Shown here piece after piece: positions 4,283 to 43,755 of a stretch of 43,760 nucleotides of DNA. The notes under the pieces are model-generated. The model was not told the DNA's origin. It ran no database searches and saw only the letters and a program-made list of their open reading frames with translations. Location of the stretch: the IMG/VR virus record IMGVR_UViG_3300009068_000067, positions 1 through 43,760 of that record; one strand, given 5' to 3'. This DNA is from a virus. A program made the translations under genes and the position numbers. Each line of letters begins with the position of its first letter. Positions within the stretch are counted from its first letter, which is position 1.

Positions 4283-4999
4283 ATGGTCAAGACCGCCACA
4301 AAGAAGTCAAAACAAAAAGTATGCAAAGCTGCTGAGTCAGTGGCCCAAGTTGTGCAAGATACGCAAATTCAAGTTGCATACCATTTCCCCTGCCCAATCT
4401 ACATTATTGAGCGCCCTGATTTTTTAGAAACGGTAAACGCTATCTCTGAAGAATTCTTAGCAATTCAGCCTACAGAACAAACTCTAGATGAAATGTATCC
4501 GGTACGTCAAAGTGGCAATTATTTTGGTGATTCTCGCATGGCTGGATTCTCCGAGTTTGTAGGCGCTACTGCTTGGAACATTCTCAACGAGCAGGGCTAT
4601 GCCATGCAGGACAAAGCGGTTCAGTTTACAGAAATGTGGACACAAGAGCACCATAAACACTCTGCAATGGACGCACACGTTCACGGGTTTGGTTCACAGA
4701 TTGTGGGTTTTTATTTTCTTGAAACGCCAAAAGATTGTTCTCGTGTAGTGTTTCACGATCCCCGTGCCGCTAAAGTGCAGATTGACTTGCCAGAGCAAGA
4801 CATGAACATAGCAACACCTGCCAGTAAAGCAATTAACTTTACGCCAAAACCCGGCATGATGATTTTTGCAAACTCATGGTTGATGCACTCATTTACGCGC
4901 CATGCCGCTGACCTGCCAATTAAGTTTGTGCATTTCAATTTAACAGTTATTTACCAGCCTCAAGTTTGCGCAGTTCCACCAGCGGTTGAAATTGTATGA
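4283..4999 (+). CDS. 2OG-Fe(II) oxygenase family protein
   Basis: The product is 238 aa, with AAGGAG about six bases before the ATG. The first 25 residues are Lys-rich. The rest matches the layout of 2-oxoglutarate/Fe(II) dioxygenases of the phage 2OG-FeII_Oxy_5 type: a proximal HVH (H132, H134) before the strand GSQIVGFYFLE, a VVFHDPR segment (about 155-161), and a distal GMMIFANSWLMHSF (about 191-204; H202) followed by IKFVHFNL where the family usually has an Arg for 2OG. Known members hydroxylate proteins, nucleotides or small molecules using O2 and 2OG. The substrate is unknown. The gene is coupled (ATGA) to a second oxygenase gene. Likely target classes are virion proteins, host proteins or DNA bases; the sequence does not decide. 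Confidence 0.75.
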   Translation: MVKTATKKSKQKVCKAAESVAQVVQDTQIQVAYHFPCPIYIIERPDFLETVNAISEEFLAIQPTEQTLDEMYPVRQSGNYFGDSRMAGFSEFVGATAWNILNEQGYAMQDKAVQFTEMWTQEHHKHSAMDAHVHGFGSQIVGFYFLETPKDCSRVVFHDPRAAKVQIDLPEQDMNIATPASKAINFTPKPGMMIFANSWLMHSFTRHAADLPIKFVHFNLTVIYQPQVCAVPPAVEIV

Positions 5000-5862
5000 A
5001 CACGTATCAGATCCGGTTTAATAAAACCCGGGGTCAAGAGGGCCGGGGGTCAATAGATCACGCTTGGCGTGTATTTGAAGGGGATAAAGAATATCTATTT
5101 AAAAATTTAGATATAACTGTTCCTGTTAAAAGTGAAAAAGATGCTAATGGGGTTGACTACAACATCACCTGTAAAGGTGTGTTAAATATAGATAAAGAAA
5201 CATCAACTGCTGTCATCACCGCAGAGAATCAAGAGTTTGTTAAACCTGTGAGCATTAACCCAACACAGGTAAAAGATTTATTTCCAACACCTCTAGGTAT
5301 TTTTAAATTAAATCGTGAAGTGTCTAAAACGGAACTAGATTATTTACGTAAACTTGAGATTAAAAAAAATATTGGAAATTTTGCAAGCGCAGATACAACC
5401 GTATTAGATAGTAAAAAACTTGCTTTAATACAGGCGTTTGCGGAGTCGTCGTTACAAACGTACTTTGAAACTGTTTATAAACCTAAGAACAATGTGTCTT
5501 TGCGCATTACGCAATCTTGGGCAAATTACACAAAACCGGGGCAGTATCACCACAAACATGCGCATCAAAATTCTTTTGTATCTGGCGTGTTTTATGCCCA
5601 AGTAAAAGATACCGATAGTATTAGTTTCCATAAAAATACGTACAATTTAATTACCATTTCACCCCGAGAGGAAGGGTTGTATAACACAACCAACAGTTCA
5701 ATAAACGTTGAAAACGGTATGTTATTAATATTTCCGTCGTCTTTAATGCATATGGTAGATGATGTACAGGGTGCACATACTAGAATTAGTGTGGCGTTTA
5801 ATGCTTTTCCAAAAGGGGTACTTGGTGATGAAGCAAGCTTAAACAGCTTAGAATTGGGCTGA
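4996..5862 (+). CDS. 2OG-Fe(II) oxygenase with an N-terminal extension
   Basis: The product is 288 aa; the start overlaps the previous stop (ATGA). Residues 1-90 form a separate domain (GSIDHAWRVFEGDKEYLF at 18-35, then NITCKGVLNI) of unknown role. Residues 94-275 are a clear 2OG-FeII_Oxy_5-type oxygenase: FPTPLGIFKL, SWANYTKPGQYHHKHAH (174-190; H188 and H190 candidate iron ligand region), NSFVSGVFYA, then GMLLIFPSSLMHMV (H252) and TRISVAFNAF with R263 as the expected 2OG-binding Arg. The motif set is more canonical than in the upstream paralogue. Two adjacent, diverged oxygenases may act sequentially or as a heterodimer, but that is inference. Composition is more AT-rich than neighbouring fibre genes, consistent with separate acquisition. 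Confidence 0.82.
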   Translation: MNTYQIRFNKTRGQEGRGSIDHAWRVFEGDKEYLFKNLDITVPVKSEKDANGVDYNITCKGVLNIDKETSTAVITAENQEFVKPVSINPTQVKDLFPTPLGIFKLNREVSKTELDYLRKLEIKKNIGNFASADTTVLDSKKLALIQAFAESSLQTYFETVYKPKNNVSLRITQSWANYTKPGQYHHKHAHQNSFVSGVFYAQVKDTDSISFHKNTYNLITISPREEGLYNTTNSSINVENGMLLIFPSSLMHMVDDVQGAHTRISVAFNAFPKGVLGDEASLNSLELG

Positions 5863-16204: not shown

Positions 16205-19200
16205 ATGGAAATCCGCCAAGTCCTTGAAGCCCTCCGCAACGCAGATGCAGCAGGTGATAAGGAGGCGGCAAGGCGACTGGCTGAGATAGCTAGCCAAATG
16301 ATGGGGGGCGCAAAGTCCCCCAAAGACACGCCCAAAGAAGAAACTTTGCTTGGCAGTGCTACCCGTGGGCTTAAGTCCATGATAGGTAGTGAGCAAACGG
16401 GCCTTGCCTCTTTGCTTGACGCTAACAAAGCCGCTGAAGAAGGTCTAGCACGGCAAAAGAAAATTGCCGAAGAGCACCCATCCGAAGACGCATGGGAAAG
16501 CGTTAAAAAAGTTTACCAAGAAAAAGGTGTTCTACCCGCCGCAGCCGAATACGTTCGGCAAGTCCCTTACGCTATTGCCGGACAAACCCCACAATTAGCG
16601 CAAAGCATGGCAGGCGCCCGTATTGGTGCCGCCCTTCCTGTGCCCGGAGGAACGATTGCTGGTGCATTTGTTCCTTCTTTTGCTCAACAGTATGGCGGTT
16701 TTCTTGAAGCGCAAGCCAAAGAACAACAAGCCCGTGGCGAACCTGTTGACGTAAGCCGTTTGAAAGCTGCAGCCGCAGCAATTCCAGCTGCTGCTATTGA
16801 CGTTGCCGAAACGCTCATTCCTATGGGCCGAGGCATGATTAAGTCTATTTTTGGCCCCGGCGTTGAAAAACTTCTTGCTCGTGGCGCTACCGAAGAAGCT
16901 GAAAAATTAGCACGCAGTGCGCTGTCTAAAGAAGGTTTTTTAAAGACGGCGGCCAAAGGTACAGCGCGTGGTGCTGCATTTGAAGTTCCCGGTGAAGTTA
17001 TACAACAAGTGCTTGAAAGGGCGCAGTCTGGCCAAACTTTATTAGATGAAGACGCAATTGCAGACTATGGACGCACAGCTTTTCAAACCACGCAATTAGG
17101 CCCATTAGGCGCAGTTGGTAGGTTTCAAAATAAATCCGCGGCGCGAAAAGAAATTGCCCAGCAACAGGAAGTAGCGCGTCAAGAAGATCAAATGCGTCAG
17201 TTGCAACAGCAAGAGATGCAAGAAGAACAAGACCGTGTAGCCAAAGAAATTGAGAAACAGCAGGCTGAAACCGCTAAACAACAAGCCATTGCCGCTAAAG
17301 CAGAAGAAAAGCGTCTAACCCAAGCTAGAAAACTAGGTACGCCTGAGTTGTTGGCGCAGATGGGCGATGAAACAATAGTTGATTACAACAACAAAGGCGT
17401 TAGTAAATACTCACTGCTCCCTGACGCAGAGCGTGCGCGTACTGAACAGCTTAATAGCATAGCCAAACAAATGGGCTATACCGATGCCGAGGTAGCTGAT
17501 AAACCGTTTGACACTCTTCACGGCATGCTTCGTGAGCGCGCTACTACGGACTTGGAACAAGCTAAACGTGTTGTGCCGGACTTGTTAAACCAATTGCAAG
17601 ACGCTAGGGCCAAGCAGGACATGCAACGGGTTATCTCACTGTCCAAACAGCTTGAGAAAATGGTGCCGGCAGAGGAGAGCCTCAAAGGTACGCTTAAACA
17701 TTTAGATAAACTAACCCCTGCCGAAGCCGATCTAGGTTCGGTACGCAAAGCGTTGGATAAAGCATTGGACAACGGCGACTTCGCCAAAGCCCAAACACTA
17801 GCCGCACAGTTAGAAAAACTACAGACCACGCAGACTGGGCTTGAGCGTAAAACACCCAGCGTTTCGTTTCCGGGCGAAGTCAAGGCACTGCCCACCGAAC
17901 AACTGGACATGTTTGCCCCCGGTTTTGAGGAGCGCTTTAAACAAGAAGACATTGAAGAACTGCAGAACCGTGGCGCTTCTGTAAGCGCTCAACCCAGCGT
18001 TGAAACAGCCGCGCAAAAGAAAGCCGCCGAGCAACAGACTGCGTTGTTTGAAAGCGGACAAGAATACGAAGAAGTTATTAAAACTAAAGAAGAGGGTAAG
18101 AAAAAAGCCCTCACTCCTGAAGAGTATGCAGACTCACTGAGCCGCGGTATTGACCCTGACTTTGTTGGCCCTGAAGCAAGTACTGGCAAAGCGGCACCTA
18201 AAGTTCTGTACCGCGAAGTACCCAAAGAGCGTGCACCCACGGACATTGGAACGCTTACATCTACACCAGCCGCAGGCAAACTGCCTACTGGCCCCACTGT
18301 ACGCATACCCTACACCGTTGACGAAAAGGGTGTCAGCCGTGACCTGACAGAGAAAGAGGCCAAGGATCTTTTAGAACAAGAGCCCAAGGTTGCCAAGACG
18401 GGCGTAGACGAAGCCATTGACTCAGGCATTATCAATTCAGAAGTCAAAGACATTCTCGGTCTTAAAGGCGTTGGCAACAGAAAGCTAGACCTTAACGTAA
18501 CCGCAGACGCAGAGTTTGTCGAAGGTAAATTGCGTGCCAAGCTGGATGCCAGCAAACAGAAAGCGCAAGAGCTACTAGATCAGTACATGGCGGATCCGTT
18601 TGCAGAAAACAATCTGTACGACACAGAAGGCAACCTGTCCGAAAAAGCCAAGGAAATCCTGTGGCGTGACATGCAGGCGCAGGAACTTGAGCGCCTACTT
18701 AAGCATATTGAAGAAGGTAAACGTGGCCGCCGTACTGCGGCTGGAGAAGAACGCCTTGCCGAGAAGGTAGTTGCCGCACCAGAACGTAAAGCAACTATTG
18801 ACACTACGCTATCACCCATCGAGAAGATGGACGCCAAAGATGCCAATGAGTTGGCACAGGTCATGGGCGTGAGCGGCATTGCAGAACTTAAAGCCGTAAA
18901 CAACGAAGAGATCAGCGCACAGCGCCATACGCTGGAAGCTAGACGTCAAAAACAAGCTAAAGACAATGCTTACGACAAGTTGCTCGAAGCGTTAGAAACC
19001 AAACGCAAAGCCAAAGATGCGCCACACAAATACGATTTAATGTATTTGTCTAAGCTGCGTACCCAGTATGTACAAGCGGCATTGAAAGAAGCGGCACATT
19101 TGCGTGCGGCTCAGAGACAGTCACCCCTGTCTAGCGCCCAGATTCTGCAAGCTACCAACGACATGTACGACTCGCTCAAAGAGTTGAGCACTCGGTATAT

Positions 19201-22200
19201 AGCAAAGCCTGTTAAAGAAACTGTTGTTACCAGCGTCAACAAACTGGAGAAGATGCAAGAGGCGTTGGCTGAGTTAAGTAAAAAAGACTATGCAAAATCT
19301 CCTGCGTTAACTGCAAAACGTGAGGCTCTGATAGCTAATATTAACAAGCTAGTTGAGAGCCAGCAGAAGCCAATTCGCAACAAGATTAAAGCCAAGCAAC
19401 AGGAGTTGATGCGTCTACGCGATCAAATGGAGCGCTATCGTCGTGAAGATTTAGAGCCTGCTCGTCAAAAATGGCTGGCCATGCCAGAGGGCCCAGTCGG
19501 TAGTCAAGCATATATTGCTCGCGATCAAATGCAGGGCCGTTATTTGTTGCGTAAAAAGAAGTTTGACGACTACGCAGATCACGATTCAAGAGTTACGCAA
19601 GACATTACAGACCTGATGAAGCGTCTGGACGAGCCTAGGCTCACCAAAGGCAGGAAAGAAAAAGACATACGTCCCACAAGCCAGCGCCCATTTGCTGACC
19701 GCCAAAAAGCAATTGAGACAATTAAAGAACAGTTGGAAGCGGCTGAAGCCAAGTTGTTGGCTAAGCCTGAGCGCAAGCGTGTAGAAGTGTCTGAGATTGA
19801 GCGCCGTCAGGGATTGCTGGCGCAGATCAAACAAAAGCAAGACAAGCTTGACTCGTTGAAAAGCAAGCAAGGTGAAACCGAAAACCGTGAAAGACTGGCT
19901 AAAGAAATTCAAGGACTGACTGCACGCTACAACAAACAGCAAGCAGAACTTGGTGAGCGCCAGAAAGCGCCTGAGACACCGCTTAACTTTAAAGAACGAC
20001 GCGACGAAGCCGCTGAATTGGAAACGCAGATCAAGGAAGCGTTTGCCGATAAGAGTTTAGCAACGCAGCTTAAAGAAAAGCAACGCCAGTTAGACGACAT
20101 AAAAGATCAGCCCGGTGCCGAAGAAGCCCGTAAAAAATTGACTGCAGAAGTTGATGCGCTAAATGTTCGTTTAAATAAACAATACGAGAATATTTCTAGA
20201 TTGCTGGCACGTATGCAGCAGTTGGATTTGGGTGAAGACTTAGCGTCTGAGCTTGGCACTGATCTTGAGTACAACCAGCGGGTGTTGGAGCGTGCCATCA
20301 GAGACACGCAAGGCGAACTTGACGCGCTTGTGGGTATTGCCCCCGGTAAAGAAGTTAAAGTTGGCGCAAAAGTCCCTCGCCGTGGGTTGTCTGAAGAGCA
20401 ACAACAGGAACTTAAGCGGCTCAACAAGCGCATGGAAGCGCTACAAAAGAGCCTTGCACAGAATCAAGCATCGCTTGACGACATTGGACTCTTTGCCGCA
20501 AAGGGTGCCGGTGCTGCTCAGTTTAAATTTGAAGGCCCTGAAGGACAAAAGCGTGCCGTGCAGGTGGAAACACCCGACTTGTTTGCGCCTAGTGAAGAAC
20601 AAGGCGTTATCTTTGAGACGCCCGAACAGTTCTTGGGTTCTTCCAAATACGGCAAGATTGCCAAGCTGCGTAAAGAAGTTAACCGCCTTGCCAGCATCAT
20701 GCCTGTGCGGTTTGAAGATTTGCAGAAAGCGCGTACTGATTACGTGACTGCCCTTGGTGCACTAGAAAATCTACGCAAACGACCTGAAGCTACGCAGTTT
20801 AATTACTACGCCGTGTTGTCAGGACAGTACACGTTTCAAGCGGACAGGATGCGTAATAAATCCAAAGAGTCTTACGCTTCTGGCAACAAACGTATACGTT
20901 CTCAATGGACAATGCAAGACGCAGAAGCCAAGCGTTTGCAAGAAAAGGCTGACCTGTACGAAAAAATGGCTAACAGCGAACAGTTGTTGCAGATTAGCAA
21001 ATACTCTACGGAACTTCAACAAATTGTTGTTGAAGCCAAACTTCAAGGTTTGAACGTAGAAGAAGACAGTCGCGAAATTGGTTTGTCTTTAGCGCAGAAA
21101 AATGTCGAGCGTTTAAAAACCGCCATGAATGACATGGACGAGTTGGCACGCAAAAATGGCACGACTGAGCCAATCATAAAAGAAAAACCAGAAGACCTTC
21201 CCGAAGGCGACGCGCTACAAAAACAAATCGGTTCTACTAACAAACAAATTGCGGCTATACGTAACCGCATGAAATTGGAAGAGCCAGATCAACGTACACA
21301 ATCTGAGTACGAAATTCAAGGACTGCTTGGCTATCGCCGTGATTTAGAGACAGAACAGTTTATGCGCACGGCTGAAGGCCATTTATTTCAGTTAAAGCAA
21401 AACTTTTTAAAAGAGTACAGCACTGACGTTAATCCCGCAGATCCGTTAAAAACGGCTTTGGGCCGTGCTAGGGCTAAATCGCGTGAGTACATTCCTGAGA
21501 CTGCAACCAAGGATGCTGCAGAGTTGGAAGAGTTGTTGAAGTCGCAAAAAGAAGTTTCAGACGCTTTAGCCAAGTACAAAGCTGCCGCACCATCTGATGA
21601 AGATGTAGCAAAGAATTACTGGATGGGTCGTTTTGAAGTTGCAAAACTTGAAGCAGATTTAGCCAAGCTTAGCGACAACGTTGCTGAAGCACAAGCAAAG
21701 ATTACTGCTGCTCAAGATGCAGAAGTTCAAATGCTTCGACGTGCAGACACTGCACTTAAAGACGCATGGGCTAAGCTTAAAGAAGCTGAACAAGCCCTTA
21801 CGTATAAAGACGAAAAACAAGCTGTAGATTTGGCTAAGCGCAGGAAAGCGCTTATTTTGACTCAAAAAACTCTAGACGATGCCAAAGAAACTTCTCGTCT
21901 AAAAGCCAAAGCACAGCAAGAGCGCATCCAAACAGGTGCGGGCATACCCAGCACCAAGGTCACCCGCGTCAAAGCACTGAGCGAAGAAGGCCGTAAGGCA
22001 GCTTACGCTTCTGGTAGGTTTGGCGTGTCTCGTGAAGTTCAAACTATGAACGCTGGCTGGACTGTGGAGTACACAACCGACGGCCCCGTCTTTAACTACA
22101 ACCCTAAAGACGACGCAGAAGCTGATGAGAAAGATAGAAAACGTAAGAACGTTACGGCTAAGAAAGCGTACGACTCGCTTAAGAAAGCTCGCAAAGCGTA

Positions 22201-25200
22201 CAGAAATGCGCTTACAACACTAGACCAGCGCCGTATTGACGTAACCAAGGAAAAACTGGATGCCCAAGAACTTTTTATGGAAGACTTGGCAGGCGCTCGG
22301 TTTGTATCTGTAAAAGAAGTGGTTGGTTCTACGCCCACAGAACTGGATACTAAATGGCAGGTTTCTCAAGAAATTAACCGCCTGCCCAAGAAAGAAATCA
22401 CTACGTACACCAATGCGCGTGCTGAGCAAGAAAAGCTACGCAAAGAAATTGAGCATGTACGCACGCTTAAAGGGCAGACAGAGATTAGCCAGCAACGTAC
22501 TGCTGTGCGTAATGCCCAAAACCAATACGACAAGATTGCTTACGAGTTGTCTGAAGTTAAGCGTAAGCAAGAGTACGACATCAGCACGCTTAGCGAGTCG
22601 GCTTACGACCGCCGTGTTAAAGATTTAACGCAACAACTTGACAAGACTAATGCTCGGTTGACTGAATTATTAACACGTTTGAAACCAATGGAGGTTAAGA
22701 ACGAGGAGCGCCTTGCTGACCTGACTAAGCGTTACTTTGCGGTTAAGAAGACTGCTGACGAAATTTTGCTGGGCAAACCAGAAGAAGATACAAAGGGTGC
22801 TACTCGTGCCCCTGTTGCAGAGAACGTTAAAGACATGAAGGGTGCCATGCGCACACTGGCGCGTGACGAGAAGAACTCAGACATTAAACCGTTGATTAAG
22901 CAAAACCAAAAGCTTAAGAGTGCGTCGTCTGAGGAACAGCGTATGCGTAAAGCCGCCGAAGGTTTTGCCAAGAAAGACCGTTTGGTGACCATGTACTCTG
23001 AAGGTTCGCCTGAGTACAACAAGGCTTTGAAAGAAGTTACTGGCGGTTATGTCAAGCGCTTGATTGACAGTTCTGATGACACAGACGGCACAGTGTTTCG
23101 TGTGGAAGCGGAGCCGGTTCTAAATCCTATAGCCGAAGCAGAAGGTAAAGCTATTGCAGACAAGTTTGCAAGCAAACTACCAAAAGACGTAAAGTTTATT
23201 TACGCTCCGACACTTAGTCAGGCGCCAGTTAAATATTTGAAAGCGTTAGCTAACGCTGGTGTAAACGTAGAAACGTCAGCAGTCAAAGGTGCGGTGTTAC
23301 CTGACGGTACGATTGTTGTTATTGGCGATCAGCACACCGATGCGCTGGACTTAGAAAAGACTTTAATTCACGAAGCCATAGGTCACTACGGTGTGGACGT
23401 GGTGCTCGGCCCCCAAGGCATGATGGACTTGACCAAAGCCATCCGCACTACGGAAGGCGGCATTTTTGGCATGGCTAAAGCTTTGGGCGTTGAGGAAGAT
23501 GTGTTGGCATCAGCCACTGCATGGGAGCAACGCGCTGTTGAGGCTGAACAAAAGGGCGATGTAGAGACTGCGCAGAAGATCCGCCGTATGGGAGAAATCC
23601 AATCTGTGCGTGAGATGCTGGCGCACATGCAGGAAGCCACAGTCAACGAGACGTTTGTCCAGAAGGCTGGCCGGTATATTAAGATTGTGCTTGGCGCTCT
23701 GCGTCAATGGTTACGCAGTATGGGGATGACAAGCTTGTCGAATGTCAGTACAAATGATTTGTACTACACGATGTTCCAAGCCACCAAGCGTATGCAACAA
23801 GAGTTTGCAGGCACGTACAAGTCACCAACAGGTTTGATCTCTTTGGCGACTAAATGGGCCACGCCTGAGTTGGCTGCGGCAGGCTCTGTTGTTGACAAAA
23901 TGATTGCCAAAGACAAGAACCTGTACGACAAGATTAAAGCCAACGGCTCTGGTTTGGCGTTTGAGACGCAGATGGTTGACCGTTATGCCGGCTTTGAGCG
24001 TTTGGTCAGGGACAAAAATGTGGGCATGGACAAGCTTAAAGGTTTCCAAATGTTGTACTACTTACGTATGTACGACCAGCGCATGAACTTTGTGGCTCAA
24101 TCTGTTGGCAATGGTGCACTGCAACGGGTTGAAAAAATCCGTGCTGATGGCCGTAAAGAGTACATCATTGAGAGCGTCAAGGGGCCAAGCATCCGTAGCG
24201 TGGCAGAGATTCTTAAACGTGCCGCACCTTTAGTTGGCAGTCCAGATGGCGCAAGCCGTTTGTTTACTTTGTATTTGGCTGGCATTCGCGCTAAGAGGCC
24301 GGGCGTAGGCTTAGAAGCTTTAGGCTTTAACGGCAAGATTACACAGGCCGAACTTGATAGCGCTAACCGAGCTATTGAGAATACCCCCGGCCTTAAGGAT
24401 CTGTTTGACACGGCACGCGCTGAATACAACGCATACAACGAGGGGCTGGTTAGGTTTGCGGCTCAGACGCATGCGCTTCCACGCGCTGTTGTAGAGAAGC
24501 TACTTGCGTCCAAGGACTACATTCCGTACTACCGCCAGCGCAACGGCGTTGTGGAACTGTTAATTGGCGGAGAAAACCCAGTCAAGATTGGTAACATTAA
24601 AGAGCAGCCGTACTTGCAAGAGTTGGTTGGCGGCGATGCGCCCATCCTTGACTTCATGACCAGCGCTGTCCAAAACACAAACTTGTTGACGGACATGGCT
24701 TTGCGTAATCAGGCTACCAGCAACGCTGTTTTTGAGTTGGTGGACATGGGTCTGGCAACCATTACGCGTAAACCTATTGCGGGTACTAACGTGGTTCGTT
24801 TTAAAGTTGAGCCTGATCCTAAGAACGAGAAAGACAAAGACACAGGCGACCGTTATGCGCTGATTGCTACGGATAAAGCAGGCATTCCTGCGGACATTTT
24901 GGTCAAAGGCATGGAAGGTATCCCGTCTCAAATGCCGTTTGCCTTGCGTGCTATGGCTGCTCCCGCCACGTTTTTGCGTAAGGCTGTGACAGCATCGCCT
25001 TTGTATGCGGCCAAGCAGTTGTTCCGTGACTCTTTAGCCGCCCCGCTGTTGTCCGGTGCTGATTTTTTCCCTGTTACTGGAGCGCTTAAAGAAATTGGTA
25101 GCGCGACCAAGGGCACGTTAGAGAGCCGAGGCATCACAGGCGGTCAGGTGTTTACTGGCGGTAGCGCAGACTTGACTAAGATTTTGCGCGACATTACTGC

Positions 25201-26485
25201 TGGCCGAGGTGTGTTCTCTGAACTATTATCTAGGGCAGAAGCTATCTCTATGGAAGCTGATGCGCTTACGCGTCGCGCTCAATACAACAGCTACATCAAG
25301 CAGGGCTTGTCTGAGATGGAAGCCACGTACATGGCGCTTGAGTCCATGAACTTTAATAAGCGTGGTGCATCGCCTAGCATTCACTGGGCTAACGCACTGA
25401 TCCCATTCTTTAACGCACAGATTCAGTCGATGAACGTGCTGTACAAAGCCATGACAGGTAACCTGCCGTTTAATGAGCGCTTGAAGATACAGGAGAAGCT
25501 GTTAACTCGTGGCTTGATGATTGCCGCTGGTACGTTGGCATATGCTGCCGCAATGCAAGACGACGAGGCTTACAAGAACGCTACGCCCGATCAGAAGTAT
25601 GGCAATTGGTTTGTGCGTATTCCCGGCGTAGAAGAGCCGCTTCGCATACCGATTCCGTTTGAGATTGGCTACATCTTCAAGGCTTTGCCAGAGGCGCTTT
25701 ACAACTCCATGATGAACGAGCACGGCAGCGAAGAGGCGGTCAAGGCGTTTAACCAAATCTTGATACAGACTATTCCCGGCGGTACTAGCATGGCCACGGT
25801 GGACGTTGGTGGGTTTAAGATCCCTACGCTACTGCCCATACCGCAAGCCATGAAGCCTATCATCGAGACTTCGCTTGGCAAATCGTTTTACACAGGGCGC
25901 GACATTCTGTCCAAGGGTGAGCAACAATTGTTGCCAGAAGCGCAGTTCCGTGAGAACACTACCGAGATTGCCAAGGCGTATGGCTCTTTGGTTGGGGCGT
26001 CCCCCGTCAAGGTCGAGGCGTTTATTCAAGGTTACACAGGCACAATGGGCTTGGCATTCTTGCAAGCGGTTAGCTCACCATTCTCGTCCGAAGGTTCGCC
26101 TGAGAAGACTTACAAGCGCTTGTCTGAACGTGCAGTAATTGGCGGTGCGTTCCAACCTAACGATGCAGGCGAGATTATTAACAGCACGTTTGAGCGCATG
26201 AATGGGTTCTCTAAAGTCAAACAGACAGTGGACGACTACATCGAGCGTGGTGAGAAATCCAAGGCTATGGCGCTGATTAGCGAACGTGGCAAAGAGTACA
26301 TGCTGGGCGAAATCTCTGGCGACTTTACCAAGCAGATTGGCGAGTTGACCCAGTATGAGCGTGCCGTGCGTGCCTCAACGCTAACGCCAGAAGAGAAGCG
26401 CGAACGGTTGGCTGAGATACGGCAGATGAAAATCAAGCTGTCTTCAATGGTGCGCGGGGCAGTCGATAGAACATTACCCCAGTAA
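16205..26485 (+). CDS. Giant polyvalent virion protein with LPD38-like region
   Basis: The product is 3426 aa with no internal stop. Residues about 110-310 include a Gly/Ala/Pro-rich hydrophobic segment (GARIGAALPVPGGTIAGAF). From about 310 to 2300 it is almost continuous charged coiled coil (Lys/Glu/Gln/Ala). Near 2387-2396 is LIHEAIGHYG, a zincin-like HE-x-x-GH motif (H2389, E2390, H2394). From about 2680 to the end it resembles the 'large polyvalent protein associated' LPD38 type: RLFTLYLAGIRAKR, KDYIPYYRQRNG, and FNKRGASPSIHWANALIPFF (about 3050-3069). Polyvalent proteins are multi-domain phage proteins packaged and injected with DNA to condition the host. Packaging and proteolysis here are inferred. 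The last 53 bases overlap an antisense gene. The ATG follows the previous stop by five bases, with only a weak AGGT upstream. Confidence 0.8.
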   Translation: MEIRQVLEALRNADAAGDKEAARRLAEIASQMMGGAKSPKDTPKEETLLGSATRGLKSMIGSEQTGLASLLDANKAAEEGLARQKKIAEEHPSEDAWESVKKVYQEKGVLPAAAEYVRQVPYAIAGQTPQLAQSMAGARIGAALPVPGGTIAGAFVPSFAQQYGGFLEAQAKEQQARGEPVDVSRLKAAAAAIPAAAIDVAETLIPMGRGMIKSIFGPGVEKLLARGATEEAEKLARSALSKEGFLKTAAKGTARGAAFEVPGEVIQQVLERAQSGQTLLDEDAIADYGRTAFQTTQLGPLGAVGRFQNKSAARKEIAQQQEVARQEDQMRQLQQQEMQEEQDRVAKEIEKQQAETAKQQAIAAKAEEKRLTQARKLGTPELLAQMGDETIVDYNNKGVSKYSLLPDAERARTEQLNSIAKQMGYTDAEVADKPFDTLHGMLRERATTDLEQAKRVVPDLLNQLQDARAKQDMQRVISLSKQLEKMVPAEESLKGTLKHLDKLTPAEADLGSVRKALDKALDNGDFAKAQTLAAQLEKLQTTQTGLERKTPSVSFPGEVKALPTEQLDMFAPGFEERFKQEDIEELQNRGASVSAQPSVETAAQKKAAEQQTALFESGQEYEEVIKTKEEGKKKALTPEEYADSLSRGIDPDFVGPEASTGKAAPKVLYREVPKERAPTDIGTLTSTPAAGKLPTGPTVRIPYTVDEKGVSRDLTEKEAKDLLEQEPKVAKTGVDEAIDSGIINSEVKDILGLKGVGNRKLDLNVTADAEFVEGKLRAKLDASKQKAQELLDQYMADPFAENNLYDTEGNLSEKAKEILWRDMQAQELERLLKHIEEGKRGRRTAAGEERLAEKVVAAPERKATIDTTLSPIEKMDAKDANELAQVMGVSGIAELKAVNNEEISAQRHTLEARRQKQAKDNAYDKLLEALETKRKAKDAPHKYDLMYLSKLRTQYVQAALKEAAHLRAAQRQSPLSSAQILQATNDMYDSLKELSTRYIAKPVKETVVTSVNKLEKMQEALAELSKKDYAKSPALTAKREALIANINKLVESQQKPIRNKIKAKQQELMRLRDQMERYRREDLEPARQKWLAMPEGPVGSQAYIARDQMQGRYLLRKKKFDDYADHDSRVTQDITDLMKRLDEPRLTKGRKEKDIRPTSQRPFADRQKAIETIKEQLEAAEAKLLAKPERKRVEVSEIERRQGLLAQIKQKQDKLDSLKSKQGETENRERLAKEIQGLTARYNKQQAELGERQKAPETPLNFKERRDEAAELETQIKEAFADKSLATQLKEKQRQLDDIKDQPGAEEARKKLTAEVDALNVRLNKQYENISRLLARMQQLDLGEDLASELGTDLEYNQRVLERAIRDTQGELDALVGIAPGKEVKVGAKVPRRGLSEEQQQELKRLNKRMEALQKSLAQNQASLDDIGLFAAKGAGAAQFKFEGPEGQKRAVQVETPDLFAPSEEQGVIFETPEQFLGSSKYGKIAKLRKEVNRLASIMPVRFEDLQKARTDYVTALGALENLRKRPEATQFNYYAVLSGQYTFQADRMRNKSKESYASGNKRIRSQWTMQDAEAKRLQEKADLYEKMANSEQLLQISKYSTELQQIVVEAKLQGLNVEEDSREIGLSLAQKNVERLKTAMNDMDELARKNGTTEPIIKEKPEDLPEGDALQKQIGSTNKQIAAIRNRMKLEEPDQRTQSEYEIQGLLGYRRDLETEQFMRTAEGHLFQLKQNFLKEYSTDVNPADPLKTALGRARAKSREYIPETATKDAAELEELLKSQKEVSDALAKYKAAAPSDEDVAKNYWMGRFEVAKLEADLAKLSDNVAEAQAKITAAQDAEVQMLRRADTALKDAWAKLKEAEQALTYKDEKQAVDLAKRRKALILTQKTLDDAKETSRLKAKAQQERIQTGAGIPSTKVTRVKALSEEGRKAAYASGRFGVSREVQTMNAGWTVEYTTDGPVFNYNPKDDAEADEKDRKRKNVTAKKAYDSLKKARKAYRNALTTLDQRRIDVTKEKLDAQELFMEDLAGARFVSVKEVVGSTPTELDTKWQVSQEINRLPKKEITTYTNARAEQEKLRKEIEHVRTLKGQTEISQQRTAVRNAQNQYDKIAYELSEVKRKQEYDISTLSESAYDRRVKDLTQQLDKTNARLTELLTRLKPMEVKNEERLADLTKRYFAVKKTADEILLGKPEEDTKGATRAPVAENVKDMKGAMRTLARDEKNSDIKPLIKQNQKLKSASSEEQRMRKAAEGFAKKDRLVTMYSEGSPEYNKALKEVTGGYVKRLIDSSDDTDGTVFRVEAEPVLNPIAEAEGKAIADKFASKLPKDVKFIYAPTLSQAPVKYLKALANAGVNVETSAVKGAVLPDGTIVVIGDQHTDALDLEKTLIHEAIGHYGVDVVLGPQGMMDLTKAIRTTEGGIFGMAKALGVEEDVLASATAWEQRAVEAEQKGDVETAQKIRRMGEIQSVREMLAHMQEATVNETFVQKAGRYIKIVLGALRQWLRSMGMTSLSNVSTNDLYYTMFQATKRMQQEFAGTYKSPTGLISLATKWATPELAAAGSVVDKMIAKDKNLYDKIKANGSGLAFETQMVDRYAGFERLVRDKNVGMDKLKGFQMLYYLRMYDQRMNFVAQSVGNGALQRVEKIRADGRKEYIIESVKGPSIRSVAEILKRAAPLVGSPDGASRLFTLYLAGIRAKRPGVGLEALGFNGKITQAELDSANRAIENTPGLKDLFDTARAEYNAYNEGLVRFAAQTHALPRAVVEKLLASKDYIPYYRQRNGVVELLIGGENPVKIGNIKEQPYLQELVGGDAPILDFMTSAVQNTNLLTDMALRNQATSNAVFELVDMGLATITRKPIAGTNVVRFKVEPDPKNEKDKDTGDRYALIATDKAGIPADILVKGMEGIPSQMPFALRAMAAPATFLRKAVTASPLYAAKQLFRDSLAAPLLSGADFFPVTGALKEIGSATKGTLESRGITGGQVFTGGSADLTKILRDITAGRGVFSELLSRAEAISMEADALTRRAQYNSYIKQGLSEMEATYMALESMNFNKRGASPSIHWANALIPFFNAQIQSMNVLYKAMTGNLPFNERLKIQEKLLTRGLMIAAGTLAYAAAMQDDEAYKNATPDQKYGNWFVRIPGVEEPLRIPIPFEIGYIFKALPEALYNSMMNEHGSEEAVKAFNQILIQTIPGGTSMATVDVGGFKIPTLLPIPQAMKPIIETSLGKSFYTGRDILSKGEQQLLPEAQFRENTTEIAKAYGSLVGASPVKVEAFIQGYTGTMGLAFLQAVSSPFSSEGSPEKTYKRLSERAVIGGAFQPNDAGEIINSTFERMNGFSKVKQTVDDYIERGEKSKAMALISERGKEYMLGEISGDFTKQIGELTQYERAVRASTLTPEEKRERLAEIRQMKIKLSSMVRGAVDRTLPQ

Positions 26486-37894: not shown

Positions 37895-38085
37895 GTTTTC
37901 ATGTCCCTCACATACGTAGCAAAGCTGTGGGCTGTGTCGCCAAAGGCAATGCGCATGGCATCGAACTCTAGCGCCACCTCTTCAAGCACAGCGTTGCGCA
38001 GGACTGGGTAGTTCTCTCTGATTTCGTTCTTGGGTATGCCAAAGATGCGGTCAAAGTCTTCTTTGTTAAAACTGATATCACTCAT
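37891..38085 (-). CDS. Small phage protein of unknown function
   Basis: The product is 64 aa; the ATG at 38085 overlaps the stop of the sigma-like gene (ATGA), so translation is probably coupled. MSDISFNKEDFDRIFGIPKN is followed by a helical half (LRNAVLEEVALEFDAMRIAF) and ends in DTAHSFATYVRDMKT. The FDAMRIAFGDTAHSFATY block resembles one I have seen in other uncultured phage proteins at the same place beside sigma- or HTH-type regulators. Coupling suggests a partner of the sigma-like protein, perhaps an inhibitor or cofactor, which is inference only. Confidence 0.55.
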   Translation of the reverse strand: MSDISFNKEDFDRIFGIPKNEIRENYPVLRNAVLEEVALEFDAMRIAFGDTAHSFATYVRDMKT

Positions 38086-38879
38086 AATGTTTCTTTCATA
38101 GGACGTACATACTTTTCACTTTTTTCGAGACGCTCTTTGCCAACACCGCAGTGAGCACACACAACTACTCGGTTTTGGTTTGTGTAGAACATATGCCCCC
38201 TATGTATGCCACACACAAGCTCCTTTGGTTTTTCTTTGAGATGCGAAGGTTTCTCGTAATCAGGCAGTAGCTGGCGTAACGTATCAGACCTTGATGGGTG
38301 CTTTAAGTGGCGTAAAGCCTTGGCCTCGATCTGCCGTATACGTTCTTTTGTTACATCAAACTTCTCACCAACTTCATCAAGCGTATGTTCCTCACAACCA
38401 ATGCCGTATCTCATGCGCAGTACCAAGGCTTCACGCGGTGTAAGGCTCTCAAGCTGTTCCTCTACAACGCTCACCATCTCATGCTTGAGCACGGCTTCGT
38501 CAGGGGCATCTGGCCTCATCAACTCAAGTAGTTCTTCAGCGTGCATACCCAATGCGGCACGCATACCTTCAGAACTTACGTCACGTTGTGCACTGTTGCG
38601 TTTAAGTTTCAGTGTCAGTTGCTCCGTTGTCCACAAATCGGTTGGCAATAAACACAACTCCTCCATGAGTGCTTTGGCATTATCACTGAACTCCCCACTT
38701 TGATTGATTGGGGGTTTACGCATGGCGATTAGTTCTGTTAATGCCGTTTTATGTATGTCCACAGAACGACAAAAATCTGACACGCTTTTATACCCCGCGG
38801 CCTCAATCGCATTTAAGATCAGGTTATTTCTAACTGTGACCTTGATGCGGTACTCGTTGACTGGTTCGTCTTCATACAT
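38082..38879 (-). CDS. Chimeric XRE-HTH / sigma70 region 4 / zinc-ribbon transcription factor
   Basis: The product is 265 aa with three parts. Residues about 17-95 are an XRE-type HTH (NNLILNAIEAAGYKSVSDFC, then KTALTELIAMRKPPIN and LPTDLW). Residues about 140-205 are a canonical sigma70 region 4: LTPREALVLRMRYGIG (146-161), HTLDEVGEKFDVTKERIRQI (165-184) and EAKALRHLKHPSRS, close to host RpoD and thus suited to the -35 box. Residues 223-244 hold C223, H226, H229, C241 and C244, a likely zinc ribbon. Region 2, needed for -10 melting, is absent, so it cannot act as a complete sigma factor. It probably redirects host RNA polymerase by contacting the beta flap or competing with RpoD. The start overlaps the previous stop by one base. 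Confidence 0.85.
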   Translation of the reverse strand: MYEDEPVNEYRIKVTVRNNLILNAIEAAGYKSVSDFCRSVDIHKTALTELIAMRKPPINQSGEFSDNAKALMEELCLLPTDLWTTEQLTLKLKRNSAQRDVSSEGMRAALGMHAEELLELMRPDAPDEAVLKHEMVSVVEEQLESLTPREALVLRMRYGIGCEEHTLDEVGEKFDVTKERIRQIEAKALRHLKHPSRSDTLRQLLPDYEKPSHLKEKPKELVCGIHRGHMFYTNQNRVVVCAHCGVGKERLEKSEKYVRPMKETL

Positions 38880-39953: not shown

Positions 39954-39983
39954 ATTATTTGTCCAAGAGTAGACAGTTGTCAA
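39954..39983 (-). promoter_or_regulatory. Sigma70-type promoter with palindrome in the spacer
   Basis: On the - strand TTGACA (39978-39983) is a perfect -35 box, followed after 18 bases by AATAAT (39954-39959), one change from TATAAT. The spacer holds the palindrome TGTCCAAGAGTAGACA (39960-39975), close to the one at 31511-31526. Transcription would start near 39947, giving a very short leader to the gene at 39933. A protein bound to the spacer could repress it. The -35 box overlaps the stop of the upstream membrane peptide gene. Confidence 0.62.
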
Positions 39984-40072
39984 TAGGGTCTCCAGTAGTA
40001 TAAATCGGTAATAAGTACTATTACTGCAACTAAAAGTACTACGCGTTCAAACTTTTCCCATGGTGTCATCAT
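39980..40072 (-). CDS. 30-aa membrane peptide
   Basis: A 31-codon frame from ATG 40072, preceded by AGGAG about seven bases upstream, encodes MMTPWEKFERVVLLVAV followed by IVLITDLYYWRPY. It has a charged N-terminus, one hydrophobic helix of about 16-18 residues and an aromatic C-terminus, the profile of a single-pass membrane peptide. Its ATG overlaps the stop of the upstream 49-aa gene, which supports real translation. It is too short for family assignment. The promoter for the next gene begins in its last codons. Possible roles are antiholin-like activity or modulation of a host membrane complex. Confidence 0.6.
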   Translation of the reverse strand: MMTPWEKFERVVLLVAVIVLITDLYYWRPY

Positions 40073-40218
40073 TGTTTTTCTCCTAAGTTGAGGTGTACCC
40101 ACTCGGTCATGCTTGCATCGACACACTCGATCTCGCGTATCTCATGGTCGTTGAAGGTGTACACCTCCGTCTCTGGGTCACACTGTTTCAAGTACCCAAT
40201 TAGTTCTTTAACTTTCAT
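40069..40218 (-). CDS. 49-aa small phage protein
   Basis: The product is 49 aa: MKVKELIGYLKQCDPETEVY, TFNDHEIREIECVDASMTEW, then VHLNLGEKQ. The start MKVKELIxxLKQCDPExEV is a recurring phage and bacterial small-protein beginning (a helix followed by a strand). The gene overlaps the 3' end of the 100-aa gene upstream by 11 bases, and its stop overlaps the next ATG. A GGAG lies about seven bases before the start at 40218. Function is unknown to me; it is probably a small alpha/beta protein acting in the early operon. Confidence 0.62.
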   Translation of the reverse strand: MKVKELIGYLKQCDPETEVYTFNDHEIREIECVDASMTEWVHLNLGEKQ

Positions 40219-40510
40219 CTTCGTGCTCCTTATCTACATAGGCGGGATTGCCTGTTTGGAATCGATACTCTTCGGCATCTTTCTCAGCGTCATGCTCGTT
40301 ATCAAACACACCAAGTACTGTGTGGTTGTGGTTTCTAACTACGTACTTCGCCTTGTCAATCAACTCAATAGCGTGAGACTCGCCCTCCCCGACATAGGCT
40401 TTAGTAATGTCAAACTCGTATACCGCCTTGCTTCCAGCGTCGGCACGGCTGTCGGCTTCGACCTCTACTGTTTGCCAGTAGGACATAACTACTTGTACTC
40501 TGTACTTCAT
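40208..40510 (-). CDS. Phage protein of unknown function
   Basis: The product is 100 aa with AAAGGAG seven bases before the ATG at 40510. It opens with strands YRVQVVMSYWQTVEVEADSR, then a helix DAGSKAVYEFDITKAYVGEG, and ends with a very acidic tail NEHDAEKDAEEYRF through DKEHEDES. The first half resembles DUF-type proteins that appear in phage early regions with an MKYRVxVxxxxxxTVEVEA start. No catalytic or metal motif is seen. It is the first gene after the terminator that follows the glutamine amidotransferase gene, so it may begin a new transcription unit, although no strong promoter is evident. Confidence 0.58.
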   Translation of the reverse strand: MKYRVQVVMSYWQTVEVEADSRADAGSKAVYEFDITKAYVGEGESHAIELIDKAKYVVRNHNHTVLGVFDNEHDAEKDAEEYRFQTGNPAYVDKEHEDES

Positions 40511-40529: not shown

Positions 40530-40556
40530 AAAAATGCGGGGGTGATTAGCCCCCGC
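40530..40556 (-). terminator. Intrinsic terminator after the glutamine amidotransferase gene
   Basis: On the - strand GCGGGGG, a 7-base loop (CTAATCA) and CCCCCGC form a strong GC-rich stem, followed by A and five T (40530-40534). It lies six bases beyond the stop of the amidotransferase gene, in the right orientation to end that transcript. It is the clearest intrinsic terminator in the window. Confidence 0.85.
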
Positions 40557-40562
40557 TACACA

Positions 40563-41672
40563 TTAAGTCAGTAGTGCAGGCAGTACTGGCTTGAACGACA
40601 CAGGCGCGCGCACATCCCATTGTAGGTAGTAGCAGACGACCTCGGCAATGATGCCCGATGTGCTGTACGACTTAGTGATTGCGCTGATAAGACCAGACGC
40701 ATCACCATCCATCAGCATGTCGTAGAAGACCTGCTCACTGGCACACAAGTCCACACGATGCGTGTAGCTGAGAGGCGAAGCCTCGAAAGCGTGCAGTAGC
40801 GTCGTGATCGTATACGCAGGCATCTCGTCAAGCCACATCTCCATCGTATCAATGTCAGCATCGGCTAGAACAGTAGCAAGCTCATCAAGCTCAGGGCGAA
40901 TAAAGCCACTCTCATCATCGGGAAAGTCATACGCCGCCTCATCGTAAGCAGCACTGTGTGCGCTGATACTGCGAGGCTGGATGCCGAAGCTTGCGTTGTA
41001 GTCTTGCATCTCGTCATACTCGTCATCCATGTAGCTGCCATACTTACTTGTGTAGTCGTATGTCTTGTACGCCGTCGTACTTTTATAGCTTGGTATAAGA
41101 CGTGAGGGAACCCACGCATAGGTATTGCTGAACCATAGACCATCATGCTCAACACCCTGATCGAAGTTGACGTGTTGCATACGACCCTCGCCATTCATAA
41201 AGACAAAGCGATTGTTGCCGATGAACTCTTCGAGCATAGCCACGAAGCCTGCGTCATACACAAGGTCAGGTGACGCAGACACAGCAGTGTGCAAGTAGTC
41301 ATTGATGAAGTGCCATGTATCCGACTTATCCTTGTCAGCAGTATTGCCTGTGTGCAGGATGCCGTTGTGCATCATGGCAATGTAGCCCGGAATCACATCG
41401 TACGGATGGCAGTTAACCATGTCAGTCTTGCCGTGCGTAGTCCAGCGGAAGTGAATGGCAATCTCACGATCGTCATTGGGTATACGCTGAATGAATGCAT
41501 TGGCATCACCGAGATTCTTAGGCAGAGTCTTGGTAACCTTCAGTCCCTTGGCAGTGCCGTACATAAAGCCGATGCCGTCAGGATTGGAGGTAAAGATATC
41601 GCTCATCAGCCCGTGTGTTTCGAGCAGGGTTGAACGAACCTTGGAAGACTTGCCAGTAATAATTAGACACAT
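40563..41672 (-). CDS. Class II glutamine amidotransferase domain protein
   Basis: The product is 369 aa. It begins MCLIITGKSS, so Cys2 would be the N-terminal nucleophile of an Ntn-hydrolase after Met removal. Further class II motifs: NPDGIGF (30-36), HFRWTTHG (74-81, with R76), NCHP (87-90), MHNGIL (101-106, N103/G104) and SDTWHF (117-122, D118). These match the glutaminase domain that binds Gln and releases ammonia. Residues about 180-369 are unrelated, Tyr/Asp-rich and end with a helical segment; no partner synthase domain is recognisable. AAGGA lies about nine bases before the ATG. An amidoligase gene lies just upstream, so ammonia or an amide is likely passed to that enzyme. Substrate is unknown. 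Confidence 0.85.
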   Translation of the reverse strand: MCLIITGKSSKVRSTLLETHGLMSDIFTSNPDGIGFMYGTAKGLKVTKTLPKNLGDANAFIQRIPNDDREIAIHFRWTTHGKTDMVNCHPYDVIPGYIAMMHNGILHTGNTADKDKSDTWHFINDYLHTAVSASPDLVYDAGFVAMLEEFIGNNRFVFMNGEGRMQHVNFDQGVEHDGLWFSNTYAWVPSRLIPSYKSTTAYKTYDYTSKYGSYMDDEYDEMQDYNASFGIQPRSISAHSAAYDEAAYDFPDDESGFIRPELDELATVLADADIDTMEMWLDEMPAYTITTLLHAFEASPLSYTHRVDLCASEQVFYDMLMDGDASGLISAITKSYSTSGIIAEVVCYYLQWDVRAPVSFKPVLPALLT

Positions 41673-41690
41673 AATAAATTTCCTTGATGT

Positions 41691-41714
41691 AAAAGATCGG
41701 GGACAGCGTCCCCG
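41691..41714 (-). terminator. Intrinsic terminator after the amidoligase gene
   Basis: On the - strand CGGGGAC, a 3-base loop (GCT) and GTCCCCG form a perfect 7-bp stem, followed by ATC and TTTT. It lies 17 bases past the amidoligase stop and 19 bases before the amidotransferase start. The T run is short and the loop tight, so some read-through is likely. Confidence 0.7.
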
Positions 41715-41730
41715 TTTGGTTGTTGTTGAA

Positions 41731-43755
41731 TTAAACAGGCTGTGCTTCAGACACTATGTATGCAGAGCGCAACAGCGAAGCAGCAAACTCCTCGTTCATC
41801 AGAACCCACAGTTCACCGACACGCATATAGATAACGTCCTCACGGCTTATGCGATCTAGGTCGCCCCCGTATGGGAAGTACACATACTCAGAGCCTGCGT
41901 AGGTAGCGAAGCGGAAGTACAGACCATTACGCAGTACCCACGTTCTCAGCGTCTCGGCCTCGTTGTCGTAGGGTATGTGCATGGGGTAGATATGGTCATG
42001 CCTATCCTCCGTATGCTCAGGTGTCCACGGCGCAGGAGGCACAGCATCCGTACAAGTGTCCATAGCTGGCGCTATGACTGTCGGTGTGGATGTGTGTACG
42101 TTGCGTACGCCGTACCACTTGACTAGCGCAGGGTACTGACCCGCCACAGTCTTGAGCCACTTGACGAACGATGTGCCGTTGAGATCACGCCACGATGCGA
42201 CACGGCAGAACATGACAGACGCATGAGTGAACTCGATCTGTGCAAGCAGTCTCTCCTTCTTGAGTGATGCACGGAAGATGCGAAGCTCGACAGTGTTGTA
42301 CTTGCCGTTGTAGCTGTTGTCCATGCTAAGCCCAAGACGCTTAGCCTCACGAGCACCCAAGTTCTGCATATTGACCATGCGATAGCGCTCACTTGACTTA
42401 CCCTTGACCGCAGTCTTGGGGTTGGCAAGTATGGACTGGTGCTCAGCGGCGCAGTAGCTACGGGCTTGGTCATCGACAGATGGATGACGACCTGCAATCT
42501 TGCGAATGAAGTCGACATTGCCTGAGCTATTGATGAACATGAGGAACTTACCCAGCGTCAACTGCGTGAAGCCACGAGAGTCAATGTGCACGTGAGTGCC
42601 GCACTTGCCCGTGTTCCATGCACGATATGCAGGATCGATCTCCCATGCCTTGAACTTCTCGATGTGCTTAGCCAGACCTTGCGGTGAGGTCACAACCTCG
42701 AAGCCATTGTCAGGAAGCGAGCCGTCACTCTTGATGATGCAGTAGTCGGTACCCAAACGGCTACGCACAAGCTCAGCGGCTTCGTTGCTGTCGTGATCGC
42801 CAGAGGTCATCTCAAGCTCGATGCCCATCGTGAACTCACCGAAGTGCGAAGACGTGATGCCAGACGGGTAGTCAAGCACATGAAGCACGTTGGTAGAGTA
42901 CGACATGATCGGCTGGTTACGATCGTTGTCCCTGTCGTAGTCATCATTGTCATCATCGTTGTCATCGTCCTCGTCACGATCGTACGTGTAGTAGGCATCA
43001 CGAGACTCAGAGTAGTACGCATCGTCACGAGGCCAGTACTCGCCATTGTCCTCACAGTACACAGCATCGTCATCGAAGCACGAGTCGCACCACGTATCGT
43101 TACGCACATCGTGTGTGTTGTTCTCATCCTCGTAGTGACCGCAGTCGCAATGCACAATGTCCATGTCACCCATACCCTCAATGGCATTGAATGCATTCTC
43201 GATATGGCTAGTGGCATCGCTATAACGACCAGACAAGTCAAAGAACGAAGAGCGAAGATCATCGTTAGTGATCGACTCATCGCCTGCCTTGGCACGAGCA
43301 ACAAGGTGACCGAAGTCACGATAGGTCTTACGAGCAAGAGCGAAGGGAAGAACGCTGCTTCCGTAGTACCACGAGCCTTTGAATTGAGCGCATGGGTTAG
43401 GCGGTGATTCAGTCGTAGAGTCATGCTTTCTTGCATACCCATCGATGACACTGTCGACCCTTCGGCTCAACAAGTTGCGCTCATGTCGATCAAGCCTGAC
43501 ATCGTTCAGGCTAGCTGGCGTCACCAACCTACGCATCATCTGATGTATATCGTAGCGATCACGACTCTCGTCAACAGCCTCTCGATAGGTCATAGCACGG
43601 GGTGCAAGATTCTCATCGGGGTTGACACGATAGCGTGAGGTACGAGTCCATACAGACAGGTTGCTGGTCGTGATCAGATCCAATGGCGCTTGCCCCGCAT
43701 CCATGTGCTGTAACTCGGAGTAGACAAGACGCCTACGAGTGGCGTTGTATACCAT
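41731..43755 (-). CDS. Amidoligase_2 family COOH-NH2 ligase with Cys/Asp-rich N-terminal half
   Basis: The product is 674 aa from the ATG at 43755; only five bases remain upstream in the window, so the true start could be further right. Residues about 303-520 match the amidoligase_2 (glutamine-synthetase-like) family: FTMGIELEM (308-316; E313, E315), KSDGSLPDNGFEVVTSP (342-358; E353), CGTHVHID (385-392; H388, H390), RYRMVNMQ (457-464) and NTVELRIFR (487-495; E490, R492). These enzymes use ATP to join a carboxylate to an amine. Residues 203-234 hold C203, C205, C223, C226 and C234, a likely zinc site, and residues about 252-280 are almost all Asp/Asn/Arg/Tyr. The C-terminal 120 residues are unassigned. 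An intrinsic terminator follows, then a glutamine amidotransferase gene. Confidence 0.85.
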   Translation of the reverse strand: MVYNATRRRLVYSELQHMDAGQAPLDLITTSNLSVWTRTSRYRVNPDENLAPRAMTYREAVDESRDRYDIHQMMRRLVTPASLNDVRLDRHERNLLSRRVDSVIDGYARKHDSTTESPPNPCAQFKGSWYYGSSVLPFALARKTYRDFGHLVARAKAGDESITNDDLRSSFFDLSGRYSDATSHIENAFNAIEGMGDMDIVHCDCGHYEDENNTHDVRNDTWCDSCFDDDAVYCEDNGEYWPRDDAYYSESRDAYYTYDRDEDDDNDDDNDDYDRDNDRNQPIMSYSTNVLHVLDYPSGITSSHFGEFTMGIELEMTSGDHDSNEAAELVRSRLGTDYCIIKSDGSLPDNGFEVVTSPQGLAKHIEKFKAWEIDPAYRAWNTGKCGTHVHIDSRGFTQLTLGKFLMFINSSGNVDFIRKIAGRHPSVDDQARSYCAAEHQSILANPKTAVKGKSSERYRMVNMQNLGAREAKRLGLSMDNSYNGKYNTVELRIFRASLKKERLLAQIEFTHASVMFCRVASWRDLNGTSFVKWLKTVAGQYPALVKWYGVRNVHTSTPTVIAPAMDTCTDAVPPAPWTPEHTEDRHDHIYPMHIPYDNEAETLRTWVLRNGLYFRFATYAGSEYVYFPYGGDLDRISREDVIYMRVGELWVLMNEEFAASLLRSAYIVSEAQPV
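42917..42987 (-). repeat. Low-complexity Asp-coding tract
   Basis: A run of GAT/GAC codons with interspersed AAT/AAC and TAC inside the amidoligase gene encodes an almost continuous acidic linker (residues about 257-280) between the Cys-rich segment and the ligase domain. On the + strand it reads as repeating TCATCA/TCGTC triplets. Such triplet tracts can change length by slippage. Confidence 0.7.

Follow-up and report, generated by a model that had tools for sequence, protein, structure and literature searches.

The current analysis concerns two adjacent genes at the right end of the window, by which we mean the whole 43,760-base virus record that was analyzed (IMG/VR IMGVR_UViG_3300009068_000067). 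Both genes are encoded on the minus strand. The upstream gene (41731..43755) encodes an Amidoligase_2 protein of 674 residues, i.e. a glutamine synthetase (GS)-like carboxylate-amine ligase comprised of an N-terminal helical region, a cysteine cluster and a catalytic domain. Following a gap of 58 bp, the downstream gene (40563..41672) encodes a 369-residue class II (N-terminal nucleophile, Ntn) glutamine amidotransferase (GAT), which is also a predicted gamma-glutamyl amidohydrolase, having its catalytic domain in residues 1-185 and a helical C-terminal part in residues 262-354. Only five bases separate the amidoligase ATG from the end of the contig, and its promoter and any upstream gene consequently lie outside of the window. 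Immediately 3' of the GAT stop codon is a terminator-like hairpin of seven G-C pairs followed by ATTTTT (40536..40556, minus strand), which is likely the end of the two-gene unit. Both enzymes are conserved and paired, and they are probably active as well. The conservation of both their pairing and their order provides strong evidence of a functional link.

A sequence-only reading of this DNA had placed an amidoligase next to a class II amidotransferase, and both assignments hold, as do the motifs that it quoted for each protein. Both open reading frames (ORFs) lie exactly at the position given there. The amidoligase passes the curated cut-off of Pfam PF12224 (28 vs. 22 bits, E=2.5e-6) and matches phrog_7469 and phrog_2443, both of which are named "amidoligase enzyme" in PHROGs (6e-7). 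Within the GS-like catalytic domain (residues about 306-548; 42112..42840, minus strand), which contains GIELE, DGS, E353, CGxHVH, RY..N and TVELR, the residues GxExE 311-315, DGS 344-346, E353, GxHxH 386-390, RY..N 457-462 and TxExR 488-492 are all invariant or nearly so in alignments of 10 to 62 amidoligases. An AlphaFold2 model of the protein (predicted local distance difference test, pLDDT, 81) has its best PDB fold matches in GS (3.5e-4), gamma-glutamylmethylamide synthetase (GMAS; 1e-3) and YbdK (1.9e-3), matches that are weak but consistent in suggesting a GS-like fold, and ATP-dependent amide bond formation is the predicted activity. Preceding this domain is a cysteine cluster (residues about 203-256, CDCG...WCDSC...YC; 42988..43149, minus strand) followed by a D/E/N-rich stretch. 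By its appearance, the cluster would be a zinc ribbon; its Cys205 is nearly invariant among 62 amidoligases. Bacterial matches to the amidoligase begin near residue 199-223, and these relatives share the cysteine cluster. A search of PDB sequences with the amidoligase profile returned no Amidoligase_2 relative, just noise and weak LIM-like matches (E 0.35).

As a single sequence, the GAT falls below the Pfam cut-offs (GATase_4, 12.9 of the required 23 bits; GATase_6, 12.5 of 27 bits), which reflects a score threshold rather than a biological feature, and the GATs of the bacterial pairs do pass GATase_6. Its assignment is otherwise supported by a match to GlmS in NCBIfam (9e-7), by a family profile that finds GlmS (2e-11) as well as PurF in the PDB, and by an AlphaFold2 model (pLDDT 84) matching both the glutaminase domain of GlmS (1.4e-6) and EgtC (1.7e-5). 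No variation is seen at Cys2, Arg76, His102-Asn103-Gly104 and Asp118-Thr119 among 13 divergent GATs, and C2, R76 and H102-N103-G104 are likewise invariant in 66. None of the catalytic residues have been lost, and both alignment and model indicate a class II (Ntn) fold with an intact catalytic cysteine immediately behind the initiator Met and the Arg, Asn-Gly and Asp that bind glutamine or a gamma-glutamyl group. Both genes differ from those of close relatives mainly at third codon positions, indicating that they are under purifying selection; for example, the GAT differs from that of viral relative L003 by 51, 22 and 111 nucleotides at codon positions 1, 2 and 3, respectively.

The conserved co-occurrence anticipated by the sequence-only reading is evident from a survey of gene neighborhoods. 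Of 160 distinct GAT genes collected from viral contigs, 139 have an amidoligase gene directly upstream on the same strand. This and all other counts describe a sample, since the collection searches retain the best 80 loci each, and the partner counts depend on profiles that we built and on simple ORF calling in genomes that are related to one another. Of the 21 exceptions, ten GAT genes have their start no more than 35 bases from a contig end, and an eleventh has just 350 bases of room. The remaining ten comprise L228, a tandem array of four copies in L287, L291-L294 and L296, the last of which has an upstream amidoligase-like protein, recognized by eye, that the profile missed. The tandem GAT copies occupy L287:4310-7481. 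Together with L291, L292 and L294 (near 5001), they represent a GAT clade having no adjoining amidoligase, and by eye the neighbors in L291, L292 and L294 resemble thymidylate synthase and dihydrofolate reductase genes. A bacterial scan seeded with amidoligase motifs alone yielded 79 loci, mostly from Clostridia. The next-gene cluster is a GAT in 69, and half of the ten loci without it end within 192 bases past the amidoligase. In bacteria, the two genes are typically separated by -4 to +3 bp, usually as an overlap of 1-4 bases or with a few bases between them. The catalytic motifs of both enzymes are kept from phages to bacteria. Fusion of the two genes, which might have served as evidence of ammonia transfer, was rejected as such, as none was found among 377 loci.

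This pair has already been described in other phages and is a widespread two-gene unit, which makes it less novel than the sequence-only reading implied. LUZ24 gp18-gp19 (profile E 2.8e-6/9.7e-13) and phiEco32 gp84-gp83 (profile E 4.2e-10/6.1e-13) are homologous to the amidoligase and GAT and are encoded in the same order and on the same strand within the early region. The same order is found in the OM43 (Methylophilales) phages MEP401/402, in ctgrD200, in an Acinetobacter phage and in a Christensenellales phage, the last of which has four short genes between or beside the two. The adjoining pair of MEP401/402 shares only about 25% protein identity with that of the window and belongs to a different phage lineage; PF12224 together with a GATase has been reported in these phages and in >30 metagenomic genomes (PMC10580990), and RIO-1-like phages encode a larger amidoligase cassette (PMC5498523). 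The cassettes of phiEco32 and LUZ24 differ from those of the window group by additionally encoding a COOH-NH2 ligase, an ATP-grasp protein and a gamma-glutamyl cyclotransferase (GGCT). Another phage group (L241-L278, e.g. L268:5924-6673) has a homolog of the ATP-grasp protein (LUZ24 gp21/phiEco32 gp80) directly 3' of the GAT in 30 of its 71 loci, whereas this homolog is found in none of the 166 window-group loci having room downstream, in a scan where other phages do score, and beside none of the pairs in 48 bacterial loci. GGCT was not found in 12 long related records, although the positive controls scored, and the COOH-NH2 ligase was found in no fetched locus using the LUZ24 and phiEco32 proteins, which find each other and therefore provide a built-in control. 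As the window is a contig end, the absence of GGCT and COOH-NH2 ligase applies to the records searched rather than to the entire source genome. The cassettes accordingly form a gradation from a two-gene core in the window group and in bacteria, to a core plus ATP-grasp, to a full cassette that also includes COOH-NH2 ligase and GGCT. The window clade carries just the two genes, which alone constitute the shared core.

In bacteria, the neighbors of the pair include serine resolvase, integrase, relaxase-like and MobC-like proteins, as identified from our own reading of the sequences, indicating that mobile elements carry the pair as well. A DUF960 protein is encoded about 300-500 bases 5' of the amidoligase in 27 of 79 bacterial loci (L298-L375) and is possibly a third partner in Gram-positive mobile elements.

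Additional insight comes from the genes that follow other amidoligases. When loci were picked by PF12224 alone, blind to the downstream gene, that gene encoded GGCT for the canonical amidoligases of Clostridia and Bacteroidota (47 loci), a Peptidase_C26 protein of the PuuD family for those of Pseudomonadota (at least 9 loci, L430-L450) and a class II GAT for window-type amidoligases (8 loci). None of the surveyed loci has a mixture of these partners, and all three are missing from 25 loci. At most, the exchange is new in part, as the Pfam entry for PF12224 already mentions AIG2 and thiol-peptidase neighbors. The three partners have unrelated folds, but it is well established that they share the ability to break gamma-glutamyl amides. 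PuuD acts on gamma-glutamyl-GABA in putrescine catabolism, where the GS-like ligase PuuA precedes it, although PuuD has a class I GAT fold and PuuA is from a different ligase family than the amidoligase of the window; it is a PuuD-like Peptidase_C26 that follows the Pseudomonadota Amidoligase_2 proteins. GGCT acts on gamma-glutamyl peptides (PMC7340319), and Amidoligase_2 followed directly by AIG2/GGCT also occurs in Tn6164 (PMC3485107). The modules of Firmicutes and Tn6164 thus employ the same ligase superfamily as the window and place the partner gene in the same position, but the fold of their partner, a cyclotransferase, is unrelated to that of the GAT, and their ligase lacks the N-terminal cysteine cluster. 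As for class II GATs, EgtC takes off the glutamyl residue that EgtA added (PMC9103826), and the Dug2p-Dug3p complex cleaves glutathione to Glu and Cys-Gly and transfers the gamma-glutamyl group (PMC13398684, PMC6508711). EgtA/EgtC of ergothioneine synthesis is a parallel, being a gamma-glutamylcysteine ligase and a stand-alone GAT that is a top fold match of the window GAT, although it belongs to a pathway of five genes whose substrate is known and need not share descent as a pair with the window enzymes.

Whereas family membership, intact active-site residues, conserved pairing and order, and the exchange of partners are directly shown, the direction of the chemistry, the substrate and the benefit to the phage are matters of inference. 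We favor, with about even confidence, a unit that makes and cleaves gamma-glutamyl bonds, consisting of a gamma-glutamyl ligase and a gamma-glutamyl hydrolase. The two genes would be cotranscribed, amidoligase first. Using ATP, the GS-fold amidoligase would join the gamma-carboxyl of glutamate, the presumed acyl donor, to an amine acceptor, such as a polyamine, amino sugar, peptide or protein, and the GAT would employ Cys2 and its glutamate-binding Arg/Asp to hydrolyze or transfer the gamma-glutamyl group without supplying ammonia, in the manner of EgtC after EgtA or PuuD after PuuA. No signal peptide or membrane segment is evident by eye in either protein, and the reaction therefore probably takes place in the cytoplasm, for example on envelope precursors or a host amine. 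The principal reason for preferring a hydrolase over an ammonia donor is the activity shared by the three slot partners, and the nearest ligase folds, namely GS, gamma-glutamylmethylamide synthetase and YbdK, are likewise those of enzymes forming gamma-glutamyl amides. Several observations weigh against this proposal. The fold of the amidoligase is matched only weakly (E 3.5e-4, TM score at most 0.35), the ammonia donor GlmS is as near to the GAT in fold as EgtC, or nearer, and the glutamate-binding residues of the GAT would suit either function. Furthermore, LUZ24 and phiEco32 encode both a GAT and GGCT, and hence the two need not be equivalent.

The amidation scheme of the sequence-only reading survives as far as a functional pair is concerned, but its premise that the GAT feeds ammonia to the ligase is weakened by the presence of GGCT or Peptidase_C26 in the same slot of other amidoligase operons. 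Stated in full, it would be a two-subunit glutamine-dependent amidating enzyme, in which the GAT frees ammonia and the amidoligase uses ATP to amidate a carboxylate on a peptidoglycan stem peptide, protein or metabolite, much like MurT/GatD with other folds. Strict one-to-one pairing, short spacing, the intact glutamine-binding residues of the GAT and its top fold match to the glutaminase of GlmS all fit such an enzyme. However, GGCT is to our knowledge not an ammonia donor, gene fusions are missing from the 377 loci, and a GS-fold ligase can use free ammonium, all of which leave this a tentative alternative. Either chemistry could serve a modification of the envelope, whereby other phages would be blocked by a change that the pair makes in peptidoglycan or a surface molecule. 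Superinfection exclusion of this kind, also raised by the sequence-only reading, has been proposed for phiEco32 and its relatives and for RIO-1-like phages (PMC10580990, PMC5498523), the former paper repeating the idea of a wall modification, and the location of the pair among early/replication genes agrees with it. This is an existing proposal, for which the literature searched yielded no experimental test. The lack of an apparent signal peptide or membrane segment also counts against it, and since Clostridia carry the same pair next to resolvase, relaxase-like and MobC-like genes, a phage-only purpose is unlikely. Overall, we consider this role somewhat doubtful.

The remaining explanations are less probable still. 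A reversible gamma-glutamyl tagging of a macromolecule, either a host or phage protein or a nucleic acid, might be common to phages and conjugative or mobilizable elements and might switch off a host process or defense, with the amidoligase N-terminus directing the enzyme to its target, but we regard this as unlikely. An auxiliary role in nitrogen or glutathione metabolism, in which the genes aid host ammonium assimilation or the making and degrading of gamma-glutamyl peptides during infection, is quite unlikely. Phage-ZRK32 does encode an amidoligase, GAT, glutathione synthase and GGCT and reportedly enhances the growth of its host on nitrate or ammonium, but the link to these genes was inferred without gene-level tests (PMC10945688), and the window clade lacks ATP-grasp and GGCT genes in the loci and records scanned. 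Lowest in our estimation, and very improbable, is a Pup-like system in which the amidoligase attaches a small carrier peptide that the GAT removes. The Pup ligase PafA is a distant fold match of the amidoligase (E 5.7e-3) and the cysteine cluster could bind a macromolecule, but no small-protein partner is conserved, with DUF960 being frequent in the bacterial loci only. The small genes at 39980-40510 had been suggested as carriers. They lie beyond the terminator-like hairpin, and homologs of these 100-aa and 72-aa genes were found in close viral relatives only, with none in the pair loci of distant viruses or of bacteria, which removes them as candidates. Since the readings that concern a role are compatible with either chemistry, the confidence placed in each does not sum to one. 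DNA base modification was also considered and rejected; no known modification enzyme was matched in the Pfam and PHROG scans of the ORFs run, with some small ORFs being outside of these scans.

No demonstrated chemistry for amidoligase-GAT pairs was found in the literature searched, even though they are annotated in many phages. The exchange of a class II GAT, GGCT or Peptidase_C26 within a single slot offers a concrete and testable prediction of the bond involved, for which the two-gene version in the window is the smallest test system. In addition, because the pair occurs both in phages and in Clostridial loci linked to resolvase, relaxase and MobC genes, the question is no longer one of phage exclusion alone but concerns mobile elements at large. 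The useful outcome is a shift in the likeliest chemistry, together with the recognition of the two genes alone as the common core.

A further feature of the unit is the hairpin within its intergenic region (41698..41714, minus strand), CGGGGAC-GCT-GTCCCCG followed by ATCTTTTA, which is located just 5' of the GAT ribosome-binding site and is a possible attenuator. Its general form is GGGGA-X...X'-TCCCC, and a U-rich tract separates it from the GAT ribosome-binding site. Relatives provide 18 distinct versions, of which nine have C-G at X-X', five have G-C and four have A-T, and this covariation indicates that paired changes maintain the stem. The motif occurs only once in the whole window and is conserved in close relatives, but is mostly absent from more distant ones. 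Most likely, it would act as a partial terminator that sets the ratio of ligase to GAT.

The window itself is probably part of a podovirus-like genome of roughly 60 kb, since related contigs reach 60 kb and a structural protein has its best matches in the 61.5-kb phage DSL-LC04, Roseobacter phage CRP-901 and Pelagibacter phage HTVC023P. The source is a water-dwelling phage, and a DNA-level search of the phage collection with this DNA returned no match. Elsewhere in the window, a protein with a sigma-70 region 4 domain is encoded at 38082..38879 (minus strand), with homologs in just two fetched loci and poor conservation near the pair. Two adjacent 2-oxoglutarate-Fe(II) oxygenases (PF13759) are encoded at 4283..5862 (plus strand) inside the structural-gene strand, and slightly less than a quarter of the window is occupied by a single ORF of 3426 residues (16205..26485, plus strand), which is flanked by virion genes.

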